A DNA stretch of 64,000 nt from Dastarcus helophoroides (Eukaryota > Arthropoda > Insecta > Coleoptera > Bothrideridae), in the NCBI GenBank assembly GCA_028583605.1, contig CM053326.1, positions 3,392,635 to 3,456,634 on the forward strand. Direction: 5' to 3'. The translations under genes were made by a program, and so were the position numbers. Position 1 is the first letter of the stretch, and every line of letters begins with the position of its first letter. Of the stretch, positions 17,780-52,891 are shown one piece after another. The notes below the pieces were generated by a model that was given only the letters and a program-made list of their open reading frames with translations, did no database searches and was not told where the DNA came from.

Positions 17780-18252
17780 CTATGTAAAGCTTCTAGAGCT
17801 TGTAGAGCACTTTAACTTGTTATTTGGTGTAGGAAATGAAGAATTGTAATTTAAACTCTATGTTTCTGCTATTTTCTAAAAATTTTGTGTTTCCAGTTGA
17901 CATGTTAGGTACAATCTTAAAAAAGTGTTTTTTTTGAGGTTGTTAAAATGTCAATTTTAAGCTCCGAATTTCTACTGTTTGTCTAATCTTATTACAACAA
18001 TTTCGGATTTATGGTCGAAAATTCGAGTTTAATGTTCTAGATGAAATGGAAAAAGTAACATTTTTGAGAAATATCCTACTCGAAAGGATTCAGCAGGATG
18101 AATATCGCGAAGTGGCCCATAAATGGTAATTTAATGTGCAATTTTTGGTATGTTATTACTTGACATTTCCAACCCTTACTTTGTGGAATTCTTTAATATT
18201 CATAACTAATAAACTTTATTAACGATAAACACGCAACAAAATTTAAAAACAA
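17780..18252. other. AT-rich spacer
   Basis: No gene or repeat recognised. Confidence 0.4.
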
Positions 18253-18581
18253 CGTTCCACTGGCGATCTACTGGCATATGTTACTCATATCTGTACCTCA
18301 GCTATGGAAAAACATGGTGAGGCTAGGATTGTGGCATTGGATATCTCAAAGGCTTTCGATACAGTCTGGTACCGATCCCTTTCCGCCAAATTAACATCTT
18401 ATGGTCTTCCTCCTGGACTCTATCATTTGATATCCAATTTTGTCGCTGACAGATTTCTTCAGGTCGTCGTCCAAGACATTTGCGATTAACGCAGGGGTGC
18501 CTCAGGGGTCTGTTCTGTCTCCTACTCTGTTTCTCTTACACATAAAGGATCTCTTAGCTTCAACTTCCAATCCTATATACA
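18253..18581 (+). pseudogene. CR1-type retrotransposon, copy 3, 5' portion
   Basis: Encodes the reverse transcriptase block EARIVALDISKAFDTVW (first catalytic Asp region) and GVPQGSVLSPTLFLLH in another frame. 5'-truncated near 18253. It is cut at 18581 by an R1-type element and continues at 20756; the 14 bases CAATCCTATATACA occur at both junctions. Confidence 0.85.
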
Positions 18582-20755
18582 CACGTATATATTAACTGAA
18601 GTAAATTTACACTTCATTTTGAGGGTTCCTACACATGCATACCCCTCTAACCTTAACTATTACATAATATTCTTATTTAATTACATTTTATTCCTACTTC
18701 GGTTTGCCGTATGTTCCTAGTCTAGTCTAGTTTCTAACCTACATTTAATCTGCCTAACCTACCCTTCACCTTAACCTAATCTAACCTATTTAATCTAAGG
18801 TTCTTATCTAACGTTCCTCCTCGCGTTGTTTCTTTTTCTTTCCTCTTGCGTTACGTCTAAGGCTGGGTGCTCAATCCCCCAGCTTGTGCCATGTCAAGGT
18901 ACTCGATCCCCTTGACTTCGGATGGTTCCAGGTCAGAACTTGGAGTTCGACGTAGGCTTCCTCCCATATTGTCCTATTCCGCTTTCTCGTAGATTCATTT
19001 CCCAGGTACTCGATCCCCCGGTACTCGAAATCTACTGTTCCTCAAATGAGGACTTGAGTTCGTCAAGCTTTCCAGCGGCTTGGTTCAGAACTTTAAAGAA
19101 ATTTGGGTTCCGAGCCGCTTCATCAATGTCCCCGATACTTCTTGGCCAGAGAACTCCCTTTCTTATCGCTAGCTGCTCTGTTCTGTTCCTCCATTCCTCC
19201 CGATTCCTGCATACGAACATTACATGATCAGCATCCTCGGGCTCTCCGCATTGGCATAATGGTGAGTTCCTTTTCCCCATCCTGTGGAGGTATTCCTGAA
19301 ACCTTCCGTGGCCTGTAAGCAGCTGTACGCATTGCTGCGTAAGCTGCCTTTCTCTTAGACGCCTGTAGCCTTCCACTCTTCTCAGGTAGCCATGAGTCCC
19401 TCTCCCTGTTGTGGCAGAATCCCATCGTTGTTGCCACCTGAAAAAAGAACAACGAGACAGTCTGTTCCTAATAAGCCCAAAGGGCACCTTATCGTATTCA
19501 TATACCACCACCATGTTATTATTATCATTATTGCCTAAACTGCATGCGCCTTTCGCGAGCTCGTCCGCCCTTTCGTTGCCAGTGACTCCCCGGTGTCCCT
19601 TAACCCATTCCAATCGCGTTTTCCTTTGTTCTTGAAGCAGATCTTGCGCTTCCTTAACAAGTTCCGAATTTGGTTTATTTTGCATGGCAGCTATTGCCGT
19701 CTTACTATCACTCCTTATAATGCAACTTTTAAGCGTATGAGCTCGTTCTAGTGCTTTCTTAATAGCTAATACCTCCGCCTGAAACACCGAGCAATTGCCT
19801 CCGAGCCTGTATTGCCCCTTACCTATTTCCTTTCCTTTCCTATAAATAACGTAAGCTGCTCCTGTGCCTGTTTCCTGTTTGGATCCGTCTGTATAAATTT
19901 CGTATTTCGTTGCTATTTCTTGTTTCTTTTGGTCTACTTCCTTTACCGGATGTTTCCTTCTCTTCTTGACCTTTTTCTCTATCTGTTCTGCGTTAATCTC
20001 CAGTCCCGTTTCTTCACGAATTTTTTCCCCTGTCCATTCAAATATTCTTTTTTTGTTTCTTATTTCTTCTAATTTAATATCTATTGGTACCAGCCCTGCT
20101 AATACCAATGCCGCTTCCGTTGACACTGTTCGATAAGCTTTCCCTGCTTTAAGTGCCATTATTCTTTGTACGCTTAATAGCTTCCTTTTTTCTTTGACTC
20201 CCATTTTATCGTACCATAAGTTCGCCCCATATGTTATAATAGGTTCGATTGCTCCTTCGTAGATAGCTGCAATGTTTCTCCCTTTAAGACCCCAGTCTAG
20301 GGCCGCAGCTGCTGTAATTTTCTGTGCTACATTCTTTGCTTTCCCTGTTACGTGTTTTATGTGTTCCTTATAGTTTAATTTCTTATCTAGTATAATTCCT
20401 AAATATTTAAGCGTTTCTTTGCACCTTATTCTGCCACTTCCCATCCTGAAAGTCGGCTCTTGTTGATTTGAACTTTTTCCAAAAAATATAGCTTCCTCCT
20501 TTCGGCCCAGGCTTCTAGCATTATCAGTGCTTCTTCGCCCGCTTGTTTTGTGCCCTTCCATGTGTTATTCCTTATGATAAGTGCCGTATCATCAGCATAT
20601 GCTATGATGCGACACCCATTTGGCAGCTCACATTTAAATATATTGTTATAAAATATTTTCCAAAATAACGGTCCAGACTTCGATCCTTGGGGGCATCCCA
20701 AGTCTGCTGTTTTATTTACTTCAACTCCTTCTTCCTTCATTATCGCTATTCTCTT
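18582..20755 (-). mobile_element. R1/I-type non-LTR retrotransposon, 5'-truncated, with RNase H
   Basis: A 2174-bp insertion flanked by a 14-bp target-site duplication, CAATCCTATATACA at 18568-18581 and 20756-20769. The minus strand encodes the rear half of the reverse transcriptase (CPQGSKSGPLFW, then IIAYADDTALI), a frame change near 20480, then one open frame of about 480 residues ending at 19032. In it are the thumb region, an RNase H domain (YTDGSK, FQAEVLAIKKAL, SDSKTAI, WVKGHRGVTGNERADELAK) and a terminal CQCGEPEDADHVMFVC zinc motif. The 3' UTR is 18582-19031 and has no long poly(A). Apart from the 5' truncation and the shift it is well preserved, so it is younger than the CR1 copy it split. 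Confidence 0.9.
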
Positions 20756-20758
20756 CAA
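19032..20758 (-). pseudogene. R1/I-type pol: reverse transcriptase C-part, RNase H, zinc motif
   Basis: Coding part of the element at 18582-20755. The reverse transcriptase would copy the element RNA at a nicked target; the RNase H domain would remove the RNA strand. All RNase H acidic residues appear present: Asp of YTDGSK, Glu of FQAEVL, Asp of SDSKTA, and the Asp of ERADELAK. The YADD box is intact. The only clear lesion is one frame change near 20480, where KLYF passes into the frame reading GKSSNQQEPTF. The N-terminal fingers and endonuclease are missing because of 5' truncation. Confidence 0.85.
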
Positions 20759-21262
20759 TCCTATATACAGCTACGCAGATGATAGTAACCTTGTGTCATC
20801 TTTTTTCTCCGACAAAACCATTATCTATCGCTGCTTCAGATCGACTAAGGGAACAGCAGATACAGACGATTAATCGGGATCTCGAGATTATTCTGGAATG
20901 GGGTAAGAACAATTTGGTCGACTTCAATGCTTCAAAAACTCAGGCCGCGGTTTTCTCTAAGAAAACATCAATGGATAGTGCAACAAACACACTAATGGAC
21001 GGCAAAATCCTTCCGATGGGATCTAATCTATCTATCCTAGAAGTAAATTTGAGCACTAACTTTTCTTGGGATAATCATGTGCGCGCCATTGCCAAATCCG
21101 CCTCTTAGAAGCTAGGCATTCTTTTTAGAGCTAAAAAGTACTTCACATTTCATCAGCTATTAACACTATACAAAGCTCAAGTTAGGCCAACACTAGCCAA
21201 TACTGTTCTCATCATAATAGGGTAACCCTTTGCGAGTGCATTAAACTAAAAAAAAAAAAAAA
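20756..21262 (+). pseudogene. CR1-type retrotransposon, copy 3, 3' portion
   Basis: Continues copy 3 after the R1-type insertion. It opens with SYADDSNLVSS, so the catalytic YADD is preserved here, then ILEWGKNNLVDFNASKTQAA and KILPMGSNLSILEV. Internally deleted near 21210 and ending in an A-run at 21246-21267. Confidence 0.85.
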
Positions 21263-35681: not shown

Positions 35682-35885
35682 TGCTGCGGGCTTATCGGTT
35701 CGAATTTATTACTACGTGTGAATTACACCACTTTATTACTGAACTCAACTTGGATCACCACAATTGAACAATTAACTCACTTATTATTAACTTCTACTAA
35801 CTCACTAATGACACTGACTCTAACTGACTGACTCGAGGACATCATGGTTCTTTGGTAGTTTAACGCGGTTCCGAAACTTTCGTTC
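35682..35885 (-). mobile_element. LTR, R/U5 half (split; other half at 37196-37343)
   Basis: The reverse complement matches the downstream half of the solo LTR at 38518-38875 in order: GAGTCGGTG-like, TAGTGAGTTAG, AGAAGTTAATAA, TGATCC(G/A)AGTTGAG, and the end AATTCGAACCGATAAGC. Clear similarity stops near 35838, with a weak continuation to about 35885, where the Jockey-type element begins. Confidence 0.75.
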
Positions 35886-36217
35886 CTTTGACCGCCGTCT
35901 TTTAGTGAACATTACTGTGTTGATAATTTTGTGAGCTGCGGAGACCGCCGATCGAAAGCTACTCAATTCACCTCCGATGGCAGGCGTCCGTGATCGACAG
36001 CAGTCACTCTAAAGAAGGCTACTCGGTCCACCTTCTTTAGCGCGTGCCTTCGACCGCGCTCGCGTTGTTAGGTGCGCTAGAGAGAGATCTTTTACCGGGG
36101 GGCGAAAGCTACTCAATTCACCTTCGTCGATAAGCGATCGTCGGTTGCGTGTTGTCGCACCAATTGAAAGCTACTCAATCCACCTTCATTGGTACGACTA
36201 ACAACGGTGATTATCGT
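35886..36217 (-). other. 3' UTR of a Jockey-type element with four covarying hairpins
   Basis: Read on the minus strand, immediately after the pol stop codon there are four hairpins with the near-invariant 12-nt loop TGRAYYGAGTAG. On the plus strand they lie at 36159-36193, 36103-36126, 36009-36040 and 35951-35978. Stems differ in sequence but stay paired: the 36009 hairpin has a perfect 10-bp stem CTAAAGAAGG/CCTTCTTTAG; 35951 has 8 bp with two G-U pairs; 36103 has 6 bp; 36159 has about 11 bp with one bulge. G-U pairs form only in the minus-strand RNA (they would be A-C on the other), which fits the pol orientation. The region is GC-richer than its surroundings and has no poly(A). Confidence 0.8.
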
Positions 36218-37195
36218 TTAGTTTCTGTTCATCTTTTGTAGAATCTGTCTGGGCCTTTTGTGCCTACTTTCCGTGGTATCTTCGTAATCTGTTATTTCAG
36301 AGATCTGTATGTTTGTATGATTCTGCATTTTTGCATACGTTTTTGTGGCCAGTGTTTTGATGTGTTCTATAAGCGTTGGAATCTTCAGATCGTTATGGAT
36401 TTGCTCGTTTGTCATGTAGTAAGGCGCGTTGACGCATTGTCTTAGCGTTTTATTTCAATTATTTCTAGCGTATGCAGTTGTCGTGGACTTGCTCTCAGCC
36501 AGACTTCCGATGCATACGTTAAATTCGGTCGGATGATTGCCTTGTACAGGTTTAGTTTGTTTCTGATATCCAACTTGCTTCTGTTGTTTAAGAGTGGGTA
36601 GAGATATCCTTTTAGTTGTTTGGTTTTCGTTGCAATGCTTTGAATGTGTGCATTGTATGAAAGTGTTTTGTCCAGGGTTACTCCGAGGTATTTCACTTGT
36701 TTTACCCACGGAATCGGAGTGTCGTTTAATTTGAGCTTTTGCTCCGGTTCTTTCTTTTTTCTGCTGAATATTATAGCTTGGCTCTTGCTTGCGTTTGTTT
36801 GAATCCTCCATGTATTCATCCAACTTTCTATGTCGTTGAGATGATATTGTAGGTTTTTGGTGATTTTTGTCCATATTCTTGACTGTGTGATTATGGCCGT
36901 GTCGTCTGCGTATAAGGCGATCTTGGTATTCTCCTTTTTTGGTATATCAGCGGTATAGATAAGATACAGTGTCGGTCCTAGTAAAGATCCTTGAGGCACG
37001 CCTGCTGTCATTTCTTTGATGCTGGATGTCTTTTCGGTAATTTTGACGTAGAATTTTCTTCTGTCCAGGTATGATTTAATTATTTTTCCGTAGGCCAGTG
37101 GGATTCCCAGCTGAACTGATTTGTATATCAGTCCAGTGTGCCAGACTTTGTCGAAGGCTTTTGCAACATCTAGGAATATGGCTCCTGAGGTTTTT
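36218..37195 (-). pseudogene. Jockey-type non-LTR reverse transcriptase, 5'-truncated
   Basis: The minus strand encodes the rear half of a Jockey-clade reverse transcriptase. Seen in order: SYLDRRKFYVKI (about 37080), GVPQGSLLGPTLYLIYTADIP, the catalytic box IALYADDTAIITQ (near 36910), WRIQTNASKSQAIIFSRK, VKYLGVTLDKTLSYNAHI, LTYASEVWLRAS, and the C-terminal IHNDLKIPTLIEHI. The YADD residues are intact. One frame change near 36430-36450 separates the last 65 residues, which end at a stop at 36218. It sits inside an LTR (halves at 35682-35885 and 37196-37343), so it inserted later. No poly(A) tail is seen. The 3' UTR carries the hairpin array. Confidence 0.85.
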
Positions 37196-37343
37196 TCAGA
37201 TTAGGCTTATCGTTCCCGAAATTTTTGGAACGCTTATCTGCTATTTGTTTCGTTATCGCGGCCGCTTTCTTCTTATCAGATCCTTCTAGAAACTTTTTTT
37301 ATTTACTAAATTATACAATTCTATTCTAAATTCTATTCTATCT
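37196..37343 (-). mobile_element. LTR, U3 half (split)
   Basis: Matches the reverse complement of the upstream half of the LTR at 38518: AGGCTTATCGTT, GGAACGCTTATCTG, GTTTCGTTATCGCGGCCGC, CTTATCAGAT, TCTAGAAACTTTT, ATCTATTTACATT. The outer end is replaced by short repeat A at 37344. Confidence 0.8.
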
Positions 37344-43185: not shown

Positions 43186-46100
43186 TAGGGCTTACAATAC
43201 CGGGATTCCGGGATCCCGAATACCGGAATCCCGGACGATTTTTGTCCGGTATTAAAAACCGGTATTTATGTAAAAATACCGGTATTTTGGTATTACATCA
43301 GTTGATAAAAATTTAATTTATGCACAATATAAATCTAATTTAAAATAATATTAATTAATTACAAGAAATCTTTTTTGAAGATAAACAAACAATTTCATTT
43401 CTAGTGATTAGAAGCCTTGGTTTTATTTAATAGAAATGAATAGATTTTAGTTAGTATACTAATTAAATTAAAATTATTATATTTTTCTTAAAAAATAGAT
43501 AAATTTCTGTTTTATTTGTAAATGTGAACTAATAAAGCATTTTTCGATCTTATTTTTGTATTATACCTTTTATCATAATTTATGTTACATAAAACTGAAC
43601 TTGCCCGTTGTAGTTAAAATATCTGATGTTTTATTTTTTCATTTTAAATAACATTAAGCGCAGTTTTCTAATATTTATCATGTAAAAATAAAAGTTGCCA
43701 GATATTTTAAAATATAATAAGAAATTTACTAATATAAAGCCATTGTTTATGTTTTACGTCTACTGCCAATGAATAGGTCTCGTTTATACAAATATATAAA
43801 GTGTGTAACACAAAAATTATTAAATAGTTTAGATTAGATTGTTTAATTTTGCAAATCAGTTGTAGTGTTTACAAGTAAAAATTATATTTTATATTTTCAA
43901 TTTTATTTTTCATTCCGTTGTGTCTTGTGGTGTGTGGATTATGTGCACTTGTTTTCTGGTTTTATTTCTAATAATTGAAAATTATATAACGGTAATTAAA
44001 TATTGATTAATCCATATGAATTATATGATACGCTAAGTTTATATTTGTATTAATGTAAGTTAGAGTGTAATTAATTTACAAATATTAAAATTAATAGGCA
44101 TAAACTGCTATACCCCCTGAAAGATGAATACATTTACAGAGCACCGAAAAGCACAGGACGAAACTTCAGTTTGGAATCATTTTTTGATTGAAAAAAACGG
44201 ACAGGTTGCTAAATGTAAAAAGTGCGCAAAAGAAATAAAGTGTACAGGAGGATCCACAAGAGGCCTTCATACTCACCTAAAAACGATACATGGACTAAAT
44301 CTTAAAAAGAAATGTGAATCTCCCCATGATGTCGAATCAAGTGTTTCTAAACAGCCTAAATTGTTAATAACAAATTATTTTAAAAATAATAAAAACGAAA
44401 AACTTTCAGAGGTGCTTGTCCGAATGACAGCTCGCGATGGTTTGTCTTTTAATATTTTTATAAAATCGTATGACATAAGAGAAGGCTTAAAGGCTAGAGG
44501 ATTCAAAGACATACCAAAATCTGCAGTCACTATTAGAAATATGGTACTTGAATATAGTAAAATTATTAAACAGTCTACAATGCATGAAATTTCTAGACTG
44601 AAATCTGAAGGTAAACGTTTCAGTATCACATTTGACGAATGGACATCTATTCGTAATCGGCGCTACATAAACATTAATGTACATTCTGTTGGAGGAACAA
44701 TGTGGAATATTGGACTAGTGCGCGCTTACGGATCCGTTTCAGCAGAAAAATGCTTATCCCTTGCAGAAGAAAAATTGAAAGATTCTAATTTAGATATATC
44801 TAAAGACATAGTTGGAGTAACTACTGACGGTGCGTCGGTTATGGTAAAATTAGGAAAAATTATAGAGGCTGAACATCAACAATGTATGGCACATTGCATA
44901 AATTTAGCAATTACTGATGTTTTGTATAAGTCAACTTTGAACCCGAGTGTGGATATTGATGTTGTTGAGCAAAATTATAATGATGACGATGTTAATGATG
45001 TTGACGATGACGATGATAACGACGAAGAAGATGGTAATGGAATTTTTATAGAGTTAGATGCTAGTATTACTACAAGTAATATAAATATTAGACATATTGG
45101 TATATCACCTCTAGTTTCGAAAATTCGGAAAGTAGTTAAAACATTTAAGAATTTACCTTCTAAAAATGATAAATATTTACAAAAGTACGTGAGAGAACAA
45201 TTAGGTAAAGAAACAGCGCTAAAATTAGATTGTCAAACAAGATGGAACAGTATGTTATTTATGTTAGAAAAATTTGAAGAAATTAAATTTTGTATTCAAA
45301 AAGCGCTTATTGACATTAGTTCCGATATTCATTTTTCTGACGAAGAATTTAATTTATTATCTTCAATTATTGCTGCTCTTACTCCTGTAAAATTAACAGT
45401 AGATGCATTATGCCGAAAAGATGCAAATCTTTTGACGGCTGACGCTTCTTTAACATTTATGTTATATACTCTTTCCCAGCAAAAATCTGCAATCGCATTA
45501 GAATTATTGGAAGCATTAAAATCTCGAATTTTACTGCGACGAACTGAATTATCACAAATACTTCAGTATCTGCAAAAGGGCTCACAAGATGTTGGAGAAG
45601 TATTTAAACGCATATCCAAATTTACAATCATTAAAAAAATTGTAAACTTAACTAAACGGCTCACACATGAAAATCTAGAAGCTACAGAAGATATGGAAGT
45701 TGTGCAAGAAACATCCCTTTCAATATCTTCCCAAATTAGTAATGAAACAGTATTAGAATCTGACAAGGTAAACGTAAACGCATTAAAGAAAAAACTACAG
45801 GCAGCAATAGACAAAACACTAAATACTTCATCCGTGCCTGCGTTTAAAAAAATTTCAGGTCTGGAACAAAAAATAAAAGATAAAATTACTTTTTTTGAAA
45901 AAACAGGAACAAAAGGAACGTATTTACAAAATGTGTATGATTTCTTAATGACAATAGTGCCGACAAGAATCAGAAAGAGCTTTTTCGGCGACTGGTTATA
46001 TTTGTACGACAATTCGGTCCTCGCTTGATGATGAAACTATTGATTGTTTATGTTTTTTAAGAGCATACTTTAATAAACAAAACACAAGTTAATAATATTA

Positions 46101-50285: not shown

Positions 50286-52891
50286 CACAGGCCCACAAAA
50301 AAAAAAGTGGTGTGTGCTGGGTGTCGGACCCACATAGTCCGGCGTATTTTTTTCCGCTGAACACGAATCTGTAGTTTAAATTGGGGGTCAAACTGCTAAA
50401 AGTGGAGAAAAACCAAAAAAACCGATAAAAATCACGATCTCGTATTTTTTTCTGTATGATATTATCATCTTGCAGTTTCTACTTGTTTCTCTCTGTAATA
50501 TCCAACCGTAATGTGCAAATACGTTAATTCACTACTTATTGTGTCTTATTTAAGTGTCACATTGATGATATTTTGTTTTTGACAAAAAATAAGGAAATGG
50601 TTAACTAAATCGGTACATTTACCGGCAGAAACCTGCTACTCCGGAATGATTGGACTACGATGGCAACTGCCCTTTATCGGGATGTGTAGAATGATTCGCT
50701 AGTCAACATTTCGGCGTATCGAAGCCAGCGAAGGCGCGCTGTTTTGCAGGGAAGCGCTAGAATATGAGAATGATGCCGTAGTGTGTCCGACGACGAGTTG
50801 ACATTGTCCTTGTCAAAGTCGGAAAGCCCTCATACTTAGGCCTAGGTATTCTAGCGTGCGGGGTTTATTTATTTTCATGGATTCTTCTACTGAAAATTTT
50901 GCTGGAACTTCTAGTACTCGTGGCAATCACAAATGTACTGGAAATCCCAATGCTTTTTGCTACGTTTGTGCAAAGTACATAGGGATAAAAAATACAAAGA
51001 AACTAACAGATCGTTTCGTGACTTTGTATGAAAAGTGCTTCAATATGAAAGTTTCCCTCGATCTCAAAAATTGGATACCCAATTTTGTTTGTGGCTCATG
51101 TTATAATATGATCAATAGATTTGAAAAGCACCAGGTCAAGGCGAATCTTAAATTTAAAACTCCAGCGATATGGAAAAAGCCACTTGATGCAAGTAATTGT
51201 TACTTTTGCACAACAAATGTCAACACTGTGGGCCGAATGCATAAGGATAAAATTTCTTATCCTTATGTGTCAAGTGTTCAACAACCAGTTGCAAACTTCA
51301 TAGAAGGTTTAGAAGATGACACGTCACAAGACAGTCTGACTAGTGGATTAGACACAATGGAAGTCGACGTCGATCCTGAAAATTCAGCTTTTATTGATAA
51401 AGAGTTTGATACTAGTAGTGAAAACATTTCTAGCGAATCTGAGGAAGAAGAGTTTTCGAGCAATGAAGAATACAGACCTATTGGTGAAGATCGGAAGCCG
51501 GAAAAATACGATCAAAAACATCTGAATGATTTATTCAGAGAGGCTAAACTCTCAAAAGAAGCGGCTGAAATATTGGCTTCGAATATGAAAAAGAGAAATC
51601 TATTGACAAAAGGTACTAAAGTTTCGTTTTATCGGAATCGAGAAGAAGCCTTCCGTAAATATTTTGAAAAAAATGAAGATTTACTCTATTGCACTGATGT
51701 AAAAGGACTTATCGATGAATTTAAGCCAAATTTATATGAGCCAGAAAATTGGCGGTTATTCATTGATTCGTCTCAACAGAGTCTTAAGGCAGTCCTTCTC
51801 CACAACACCAACAAATTCGCTCCTCTACCTTTAGCCCACTCCACTGTACTTAAAGAAGAGTATTCAAACCTCGAAGTTGTCCTAAAGAAAATACAGTACG
51901 AAGAACATAAGTGGCAAGTATGTGGTGATTTAAAAATTTTGTCCATGATCCTTGGACAGCAATCTGGATTCACAAAATATCCATGCTATTTGTGTATGTT
52001 TGACAGTAGGGATCGAAAAAATCACTACGTAAAAAAAGAATGGCCTTTATGATCTTCATTTAAGGTTGGATCACATAATATAATAAAGAAACCGCTTGTT
52101 GATCCAGCCAAAATTCTCATTCCTCATCTTCATATAAAACTTGGCTTAATTAAACAGTATGTCAAAGCTCTTGATAAAGATGGTGAATGTTTTACGTACC
52201 TGCGTACTGTGTTTAAAAAAAAATCTGATGCTAAACTAAGGGAAGGCATCTTCGATGGACCGGAAATCCGAAAGTTATTCAAAGATGAAGGGTTTGTTGC
52301 AGTCATGGATGACCAAGAAAAGGCATCGTGGTTAAGTTTCAAGGAAGTGTGTACCAAATTTTTAGGCAATACCAAGGATGCTGATTACAAAAGCATTGTG
52401 GCAAATATGATAAGAAATTTTCAGCATTCAGGTTGCCTAATGAATTTGAAAATGCACTTCCTTGATTCGCATCTTGACCAATTCCCGGAGAATAACGGAG
52501 ACTTCAGTGAAGAGCAAGGAGAAAGATTTCACCAAGATCTCAAAGAGTTTGAACGGCGGTTTCAGGGACAGTGGGGAATAAATATGTTTGCAGATTACTG
52601 TTGGATGCTACACAGAGAAACTCAAGAAAAAGGAACAAAACGTAGCAGAAATCCACTTCACAGGTCATTTGAAGAAAAAAGGGTCAGGAAAAGACGAAAA
52701 TTATAAGAATGATAATATCAAACAGAAAAAAATACGAGATCGTGATTTTTATCGGTTTTTTTGGTTTTTCTCTACTTTTAGCAGTTTGACCCCCAATTTA
52801 GACTACAGATTCGTGTTCAGCGGGAAAAAATACGCCGGACTATGTGGGTCCGACACCCAGCACACACCACTTTTTTTTTTGTGGGCCTGTG
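50286..52891 (+). mobile_element. Young-looking DNA transposon with about 183-bp inverted repeats, TTA duplication
   Basis: A 2606-bp element. Terminal inverted repeats run 50286-50468 and 52708-52891 and differ at only a few positions. They start CACAGGCCCACAAAAAA and include GTCGGACCCACATAGTCCGG. TTA flanks both ends (50283-50285 and 52892-52894). It carries one gene (50877-52706) with a single internal stop. CAC ends with a 3-bp duplication would suit the CMC/Chapaev-type group, but the protein shows no motif I can use to prove it. Confidence 0.88.
50877..52706 (+). pseudogene. Transposase-like gene of the 50.3-52.9 kb element, one internal stop
   Basis: A single frame of about 609 codons broken once, by TGA at 52050-52052. 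The first real ATG is at 50877 (MDSSTENFAG); an upstream in-frame GTG at 50856 is not a likely eukaryotic start. N-terminal Cys pairs (CYVCAKYIG, CGSC, then CYFC) suggest a zinc-binding module over residues 20-110. An acidic Ser-rich linker follows (SESEEEEFSSNEE). The rear half has a conserved look: GDLKILSMILGQQSGFTKYP then CYLCMFDSRD, LGLIKQYVKALDKDG, GPEIRKLF, HFLDSHLDQFPENNGDFSEE, GERFHQDLKEFERRFQG and FADYCWML. I have met this family as uncharacterised proteins in invertebrate genomes. The Asp and Glu of these blocks (DSHLD, SEEQGE) are candidate catalytic residues by inference only. It ends two bases before the right inverted repeat. The stop probably replaced one sense codon. Confidence 0.8.

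Follow-up and report, generated by a model that had tools for sequence, protein, structure and literature searches.

The window, meaning here the whole 64-kb stretch of DNA that was analysed, contains on its minus strand pol fragments and 3' untranslated regions (UTRs) of two non-LTR retrotransposon insertions, designated P1 and P2, and in each 3' UTR a series of hairpins with a common loop was found. The features are as follows, with hairpins numbered from the ORF2 stop codon onward.

36218..37200, minus strand: P1 pol (ORF2) fragment, Jockey-like reverse transcriptase (RT), 5'-truncated, frame interrupted, stop codon at 36220-36218
35841..36217, minus strand: P1 3' UTR, ending ...CCATGAT; the sequence below 35841 was labelled LTR-like in the first-pass annotation
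36154..36198, minus strand: P1 hairpin 1, loop GGAUUGAGUA, 6 bp + 1-nt bulge + 11 bp
36092..36133, minus strand: P1 hairpin 2, loop GAAUUGAGUA, inner stem of 7 bp, outer stem UUAUCG/CGGUAA, by energy the weakest of the four
36009..36040, minus strand: P1 hairpin 3, loop GGACCGAGUA, 11 bp
35948..35980, minus strand: P1 hairpin 4, loop GAAUUGAGUA, 9 bp + bulge + at least 2 bp
35862..35899, minus strand: P1 hairpin lacking the common loop, located 21 nt short of the element's 3' end, folded piece z = -1.79
19032..20794, minus strand: R1-like P2 pol fragment encoding RT and RNase H, stop codon at 19034-19032
18588..19031, minus strand: P2 3' UTR, ending TTCAGTTAATATA, followed by a TA-rich tail
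18989..19035, minus strand: P2 hairpin 1, loop GGAUCGAGUA, apical stem of 5 bp, with the stop codon contained in an outer stem
18893..18916, minus strand: P2 hairpin 2, loop GGAUCGAGUA, 7 bp
18862..18883, minus strand: P2 hairpin 3, loop GGAUUGAGCA, 6 bp
18597..18616, minus strand: P2 3'-terminal hairpin, distinct from the corresponding P1 hairpin and without the common loop, folded piece z = -2.07

Two further open reading frames lie on the plus strand. That at 44124-46028 encodes 634 aa, with a BED zinc finger and a DUF659 match, the latter under the curated cut-off, and is transposase-like. That at 50856-52052 encodes 398 aa with a zf-AD match under the curated cut-off; it has 971 relatives, the best of them 92% identical over 63%, and the 120 of the 971 that were listed are mostly unnamed, the few names coming from assorted animals. 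This second frame may belong to a mobile element instead of being a host gene.

The first-pass annotation had reported one loop four times on the minus strand, and the loop was found there exactly as TGRAYYGAGTAG at 36171-36182, 36109-36120, 36019-36030 and 35959-35970, the array as a whole spanning 35948-36198. When the P1 RNA is folded, the loop comprises 10 nt, GRAYYGAGUA, closed by a U-G pair. Uninterrupted stems around the 12-nt loop measured 6, 6, 10 and 8 bp for hairpins 1-4 on the minus strand and 1, 1, 10 and 1 bp on the plus strand, where hairpin 3 alone keeps its stem; the other three are lost there because several of their pairs are G-U, and good pairing in three of the four stems is thus confined to minus-strand RNA, the sense RNA of the element. 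Folding of 35925-36230 gave z = -4.12 on the minus strand, with 0 of 100 shuffles as good, compared with z = -0.42 and 29 of 100 shuffles on the plus strand. Given the loops and the base composition, and with the stems taken as independent, the joint chance of stems of 7, 7, 11 and 9 bp is about 6e-16.

Each loop had also been described as enclosed by a different complementary stem. The description fits mainly hairpin 3 and, elsewhere, the outer pairs, since hairpins 1, 2 and 4 have almost identical innermost stems (GAAGG/CUUUC or GGAGG/CUUUC). As excised pieces, hairpin 3 (z = -2.06) and hairpin 4 (z = -2.58) folded as drawn; the hairpin 1 piece, which was cut short, and the hairpin 2 piece did not, and the z of +0.34 for the latter marks hairpin 2 as weak by energy. 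A known Rfam family was ruled out as the identity of the hairpins, since a search of 4227 families at gathering thresholds returned no matches in the window.

P1 has an RT domain of LINE type (PF00078, E = 3e-15), and among the named relatives of its pol are jockey proteins from Trichonephila and Tribolium; judged by the names of these relatives, which supply the clade, it is a Jockey-like non-LTR retrotransposon. The host genome (539 Mb, 50 contigs) was searched for further copies, yielding 233 first-look candidates, of which 40 were scored, all spanning the whole query at 96-100%, and 28 of these best-scoring copies, including the window's own, were taken with their flanks. Lengths measured from the 3' end vary, as in 5' truncation. 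All 28 copies carry the four hairpin sites and reach ...CCATGAT, most then diverging into different flanks, and 13 of the 28 have at least one further GAT. Because the sites are kept in every copy and every copy ends short of where the LTR-like sequence begins in the window, mostly with other flanks, absence of the array from other copies and its ownership by the neighbouring LTR-like sequence were both ruled out, and the initial assignment to a Jockey-type 3' UTR was borne out. Four of the 28 copies (L062, L067, L069 and L083), that of the window counted among them, have similar LTR-like repeats (CTCGAG...TTAGA; in the window from 35841 downward) immediately behind their ends, and this repeat is a possible preferred target of P1.

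P2 combines its RT with an RNase H domain (PF00075, E = 1.1e-16), and its relatives P0122, P0135 and P0137 are named type-1 element or R1DM; on these names, which again supply the clade, it is an R1-like non-LTR retrotransposon. The loop reads GGATCGAGTA in two of its hairpins and GGATTGAGCA in the third. Outside the loop the two elements have little in common: their RT segments are 29% identical over 98 aa and 36% over 64 aa, the longest blastn match between their 3' UTRs is 11 nt (E 0.03), and the closing pair is U-G in P1 and G-C in P2, the stems differing as well. The search for P2 gave 155 candidates, of which 40 were scored at 98-100%, and the three hairpins were present in all 12 fetched copies (the window's own included), one stem being shortened to 6 bp. 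Taken as a whole, the P2 array region is no more stably folded than its shuffled versions (z = -0.50; 54 of 200). The P2 insertions (18247-18592, 18588-20794; L110-L121) show a preference for certain sites: 7 of the 12 fetched copies stop at one TA-rich site, which adjoins an RT fragment, in antisense orientation, from another LINE, and 2 further copies lie elsewhere in that LINE. The bodies of the seven same-site copies are 97-99% identical and their flanks 84-94%, which suggests that they are independent insertions. One P2-like copy (G000:C1:3506977-3507875) has 107-bp hairpin units in tandem.

Specificity of the loop-plus-stem motif was assessed in several ways. GRAYYGAGYA, in which position 9 was widened from T to Y after P2 had been seen, has seven exact matches on both strands of the 64 kb; these are the four P1 and three P2 loops, all within the two 3' UTRs and in stems of 5-11 bp. 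With the narrower GRAYYGAGTA and stems of at least 5 bp, two hairpins were observed outside P1, against a mean of 0.0125 in 400 windows simulated with matched dinucleotide composition, none of which contained two. A 200-kb sample of the genome contained no hairpin at up to one loop mismatch and a 4 bp stem. Chance origin of the hairpins was ruled out by the joint stem probability, by the occurrence of all seven loops in stems and by the simulated windows. Separately, the loop string is contained in a 16-bp minisatellite, TACTCGATTCGAGTTA (G000:C12:4662816-4666870 and C16:66807-71944), apparently by chance; it inflates pattern counts, making up 21 of the 49 rows of one loop-pair list.

Sixteen hairpins (7 from the window and 9 from sister copies; 15 distinct) were aligned structurally, without gaps, over 22 positions. 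In this alignment 95.6% of cells are paired, four of the six pairs show changes on both sides, and the covariation score was reached by 0 of 500 shuffles. Covariation between hairpins is clear, and as the hairpins are paralogues from hand-chosen copies, it says that stems vary while staying paired and does not count independent events. A covariance model (R1) built from these 16 hairpins scored the seven window hairpins at 29-36 bits, the next best match in 264 kb reaching 16.4 bits. With a model built from the 13 P1-type hairpins only, scores in P2 were no more than 11-13 bits (E 2-6), and one unrelated match exceeded them at 19.2 bits; the case for a motif common to both families therefore rests on loop sequence, stem and position, and not on that model.

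Across the 28 P1 copies, 109 of 112 loops fit GRAYYGAGTA exactly, and no copy has more than one of the three that deviate. Substitutions affect 5 of 1120 loop cells and 104 of 7476 spacer cells (Fisher p = 0.006), the spacer counts including subfamily differences; the comparison of loops with stems (5/1120 versus 21/1903) was not significant (p = 0.067). When the genome was searched for two loops 53-79 nt apart, 72 + 69 matches were obtained, compared with 0 + 1 for the reversed pattern, and over the loop-pair patterns used, matches and reversed controls numbered 141 and 1, 49 and 2, and 160 and 3 (minisatellites included). The 53-79 nt matches, of which 100 of 141 were listed, some of them minisatellites, also revealed a diverged sister subfamily of P1, designated P1b.

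The array is kept in this older sister. Five P1b pieces were fetched, and model R1, itself partly built from L123, L126, L127 and L125, found four hairpins each in L123, L124, L126 and L127 and three in L122, whose sequence breaks off before hairpin 4. Several P1b sites are weakened: in L124 the stem of hairpin 2 is absent by direct scan and the loop of hairpin 4 is changed, in L126 the altered loop is that of hairpin 1, and hairpin 3 of L123 has 4 bp only. In hairpin 3, a U-A / C-G exchange and A-U / G-U exchanges distinguish P1 from P1b, and an alignment of five 3' UTRs has 243 of its 248 cells (98.0%) paired. Covariation beyond phylogenetic expectation among such orthologous copies, which the first-pass annotation had proposed as one of its tests, was not established, because there was only one double change and 87 of 500 shuffles scored as high. 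One P1-like copy (L125, G000:C9:11328730-11328877) carries a 23-bp hairpin unit in tandem, with six exact loops, and one more hairpin.

Among P2-type pol genes on contigs C1-C9, 24 of 28 have a loop pair within 1.5 kb downstream. Lower-identity R1-like pol genes were taken as another R1-like family, P3, and at the tested spacing none of 25 had loop pairs downstream. The other non-LTR remnants in the window likewise have no such loop, and their 3' UTRs may be missing. From P3 and these remnants it follows that LINEs of the host genome do not need the array in general. P3 (for example C2:35952443-35954092) has several open frames of 1276 aa and for that reason may be young. A third LINE family with the loop was not clearly seen at gaps of 23-49, 53-79 or 81-110 among the matches listed (100 of 141 and 100 of 160, most rows of the latter list being judged without sequence). 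In viral and bacterial sequence collections no relatives of the array were found; one locus, L044, has four exact loops in AT-rich stems of 5-6 bp, the sole such locus among 61 examined.

The position of the arrays was measured from both ends of the 3' UTR. The first loop begins 36 nt after the ORF2 stop in P1 (7/7 copies examined) and 15 nt after it in P2 (3/12 copies, those with the search string). P1 hairpins extend to 270 nt past the stop, the array occupies 107-357 nt from the 3' end, and the hairpin without the common loop lies 21 nt from that end. The P1 array is thus not the stem-loop close to the RNA 3' end that characterises stringent-type LINEs. P1 and P2 each have a separate hairpin near the 3' end, the two differing from one another and both without the common loop.

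On balance, the hairpins are probably a cis-acting, multivalent protein-binding platform of the Jockey-like LINE that starts right behind the ORF2 stop and has a ligand common to both families. A binding platform for the element's own RT or a host factor had been suggested at the outset; constant loops with pair-preserving stems fit such a platform, but the position of the array and the presence of the loop in two families favour a common ligand over a tail signal for the cognate RT. As P1 and P2 have very different RTs and the same loop, a common ligand would be more likely than each element's own RT. One trans-acting factor would read GRAYYGAGUA, with the stem merely presenting the loop, and several hairpin copies per RNA would give avidity; a bulged-G or T-loop-like fold of the loop is conceivable. 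Bound near the stop while synthesis of ORF2p finishes, this factor could mark the RNA for assembly into its own RNP (cis preference), and the separate hairpin near the 3' end would serve the start of reverse transcription. The putative ligand would be either an RNA-binding protein of the host or an ORF1p related between the families; according to the available part of PMC4120745, Type I ORF1 (RRM + zinc knuckle) is reported from the Jockey clade as well as from R1, and CR1 and L2 are reported cases in which ORF1 has passed from one lineage to another. A more specific version, which we advance tentatively and think rather doubtful, is that one host or widespread RNA-binding protein reads GRAYYGAGUA and that distant LINEs each placed an array behind the ORF2 stop as a co-translational RNP address, the loop acting as a code for cis preference apart from the hairpin for RT start. 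The assembly of an active LINE RNA-protein complex and the generality of cis preference are described as open questions in the part available of a 2025 review (PMC12503042).

Two other explanations bear on the sharing of the loop. The hairpins could be a template signal for each element's own ORF2p, of the stringent type as in zebrafish L2, acting in RT recruitment in cis or in target-primed reverse transcription. The array's presence in 28/28 P1 copies examined agrees with this, as does the binding of a 3' stem-loop by ZfL2 ORF2p (in the available text of PMC4176376); yet the same loop occurs despite RT identities of 29% and 36% between P1 and P2, the array stops 107 nt short of the P1 terminus, and each element has a hairpin of another kind close to its 3' end, and we consider this explanation unlikely, if still to be reckoned with. 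Exchange of a 3' UTR module by template switching, or common ancestry, is a possibility with slightly more to it, if a minor one; it would explain the origin of the common loop and not its function, and is compatible with the platform reading. P1 and P2 are alike in the loop and in its position behind the stop, but their 3' UTRs have no blastn match longer than 11 nt, their closing pairs differ, and R1-like P3 is without loop pairs at the tested spacing.

The remaining explanations are far less probable. Minisatellite-like spread of a short hairpin unit by selfish or neutral local duplication, without function, has precedents in the tandem 23-bp units of P1-like L125 and the tandem 107-bp units of one P2-like copy; we regard it as improbable for the arrays described here, in which the outer stems of P1 differ around near-constant loops, loops have changed less than spacers, and two families have the same loop. 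Action of the structures on translation at the ORF2 stop (readthrough, termination or ribosome stalling) is a shade less probable again. The first loops do lie only 36 nt (P1) and 15 nt (P2) past the stop, and the outer stem of P2 hairpin 1 contains the stop codon; the P1 hairpins, however, extend to 270 nt beyond it, and ribosome stalling is not known to need a loop consensus. Least probable, and very much so, is that the hairpins feed small-RNA pathways as Dicer or piRNA precursors, as hairpin 3 might suggest, its 12-nt loop being closed by a perfect stem of 10 bp: stems of such length are too short for Dicer products, and the families differ more in stem than in loop.

For the study of LINE protein-RNA recognition, the platform reading has a practical side, in that the loop repeat at the stop codon of two LINE families provides a concrete 22 nt RNA bait together with simple mutants. 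If the loop is truly common, different LINEs might exploit, or be recognised by, one protein.

Phage coat-protein hairpins and packaging signals combine repeated loops with variable stems and thereby achieve multivalent binding, and the P1 and P2 arrays are likened to them as an analogy only. Among retrotransposons, R2 has a 3' UTR RNA that is recognised by the element's own R2 protein; R2 belongs to another clade, and a stem-loop or pseudoknot is described for it, with no repeated loop, in the available part of PMC12503042. SART1Bm, a telomere-specific element of the silkworm and thus, like P1 and P2, an insect element, has at least two stem-loops in its 3' UTR, and the portion available of PMC7265360 gives no account of a constant-loop array, the comparison being made without the SART1Bm loop sequences. 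The tails of UnaL2 and ZfL2-1/2 resemble P1 and P2 in that a non-LTR RNA carries a stem-loop towards its 3' end; recognition in those tails is specific for the loop and general for the stem, and in ZfL2 ORF2p a conserved region binds the stem and a variable region the loop, which is read specifically by the cognate protein (PMC4176376, from the part of the text available). A literature search by titles and abstract openings, in which most subscription journals lay outside the coverage, found no description of tandem constant-loop hairpins in LINE 3' UTRs, and the listed papers containing the loop strings are, going by their titles, on other subjects. Stem-loops in LINE 3' UTRs are in themselves already known. 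Unlike the UnaL2 and ZfL2 tails, P1 and P2 have several hairpins per RNA, placed by the ORF2 stop instead of the tail, and one loop across two families whose RTs differ widely.
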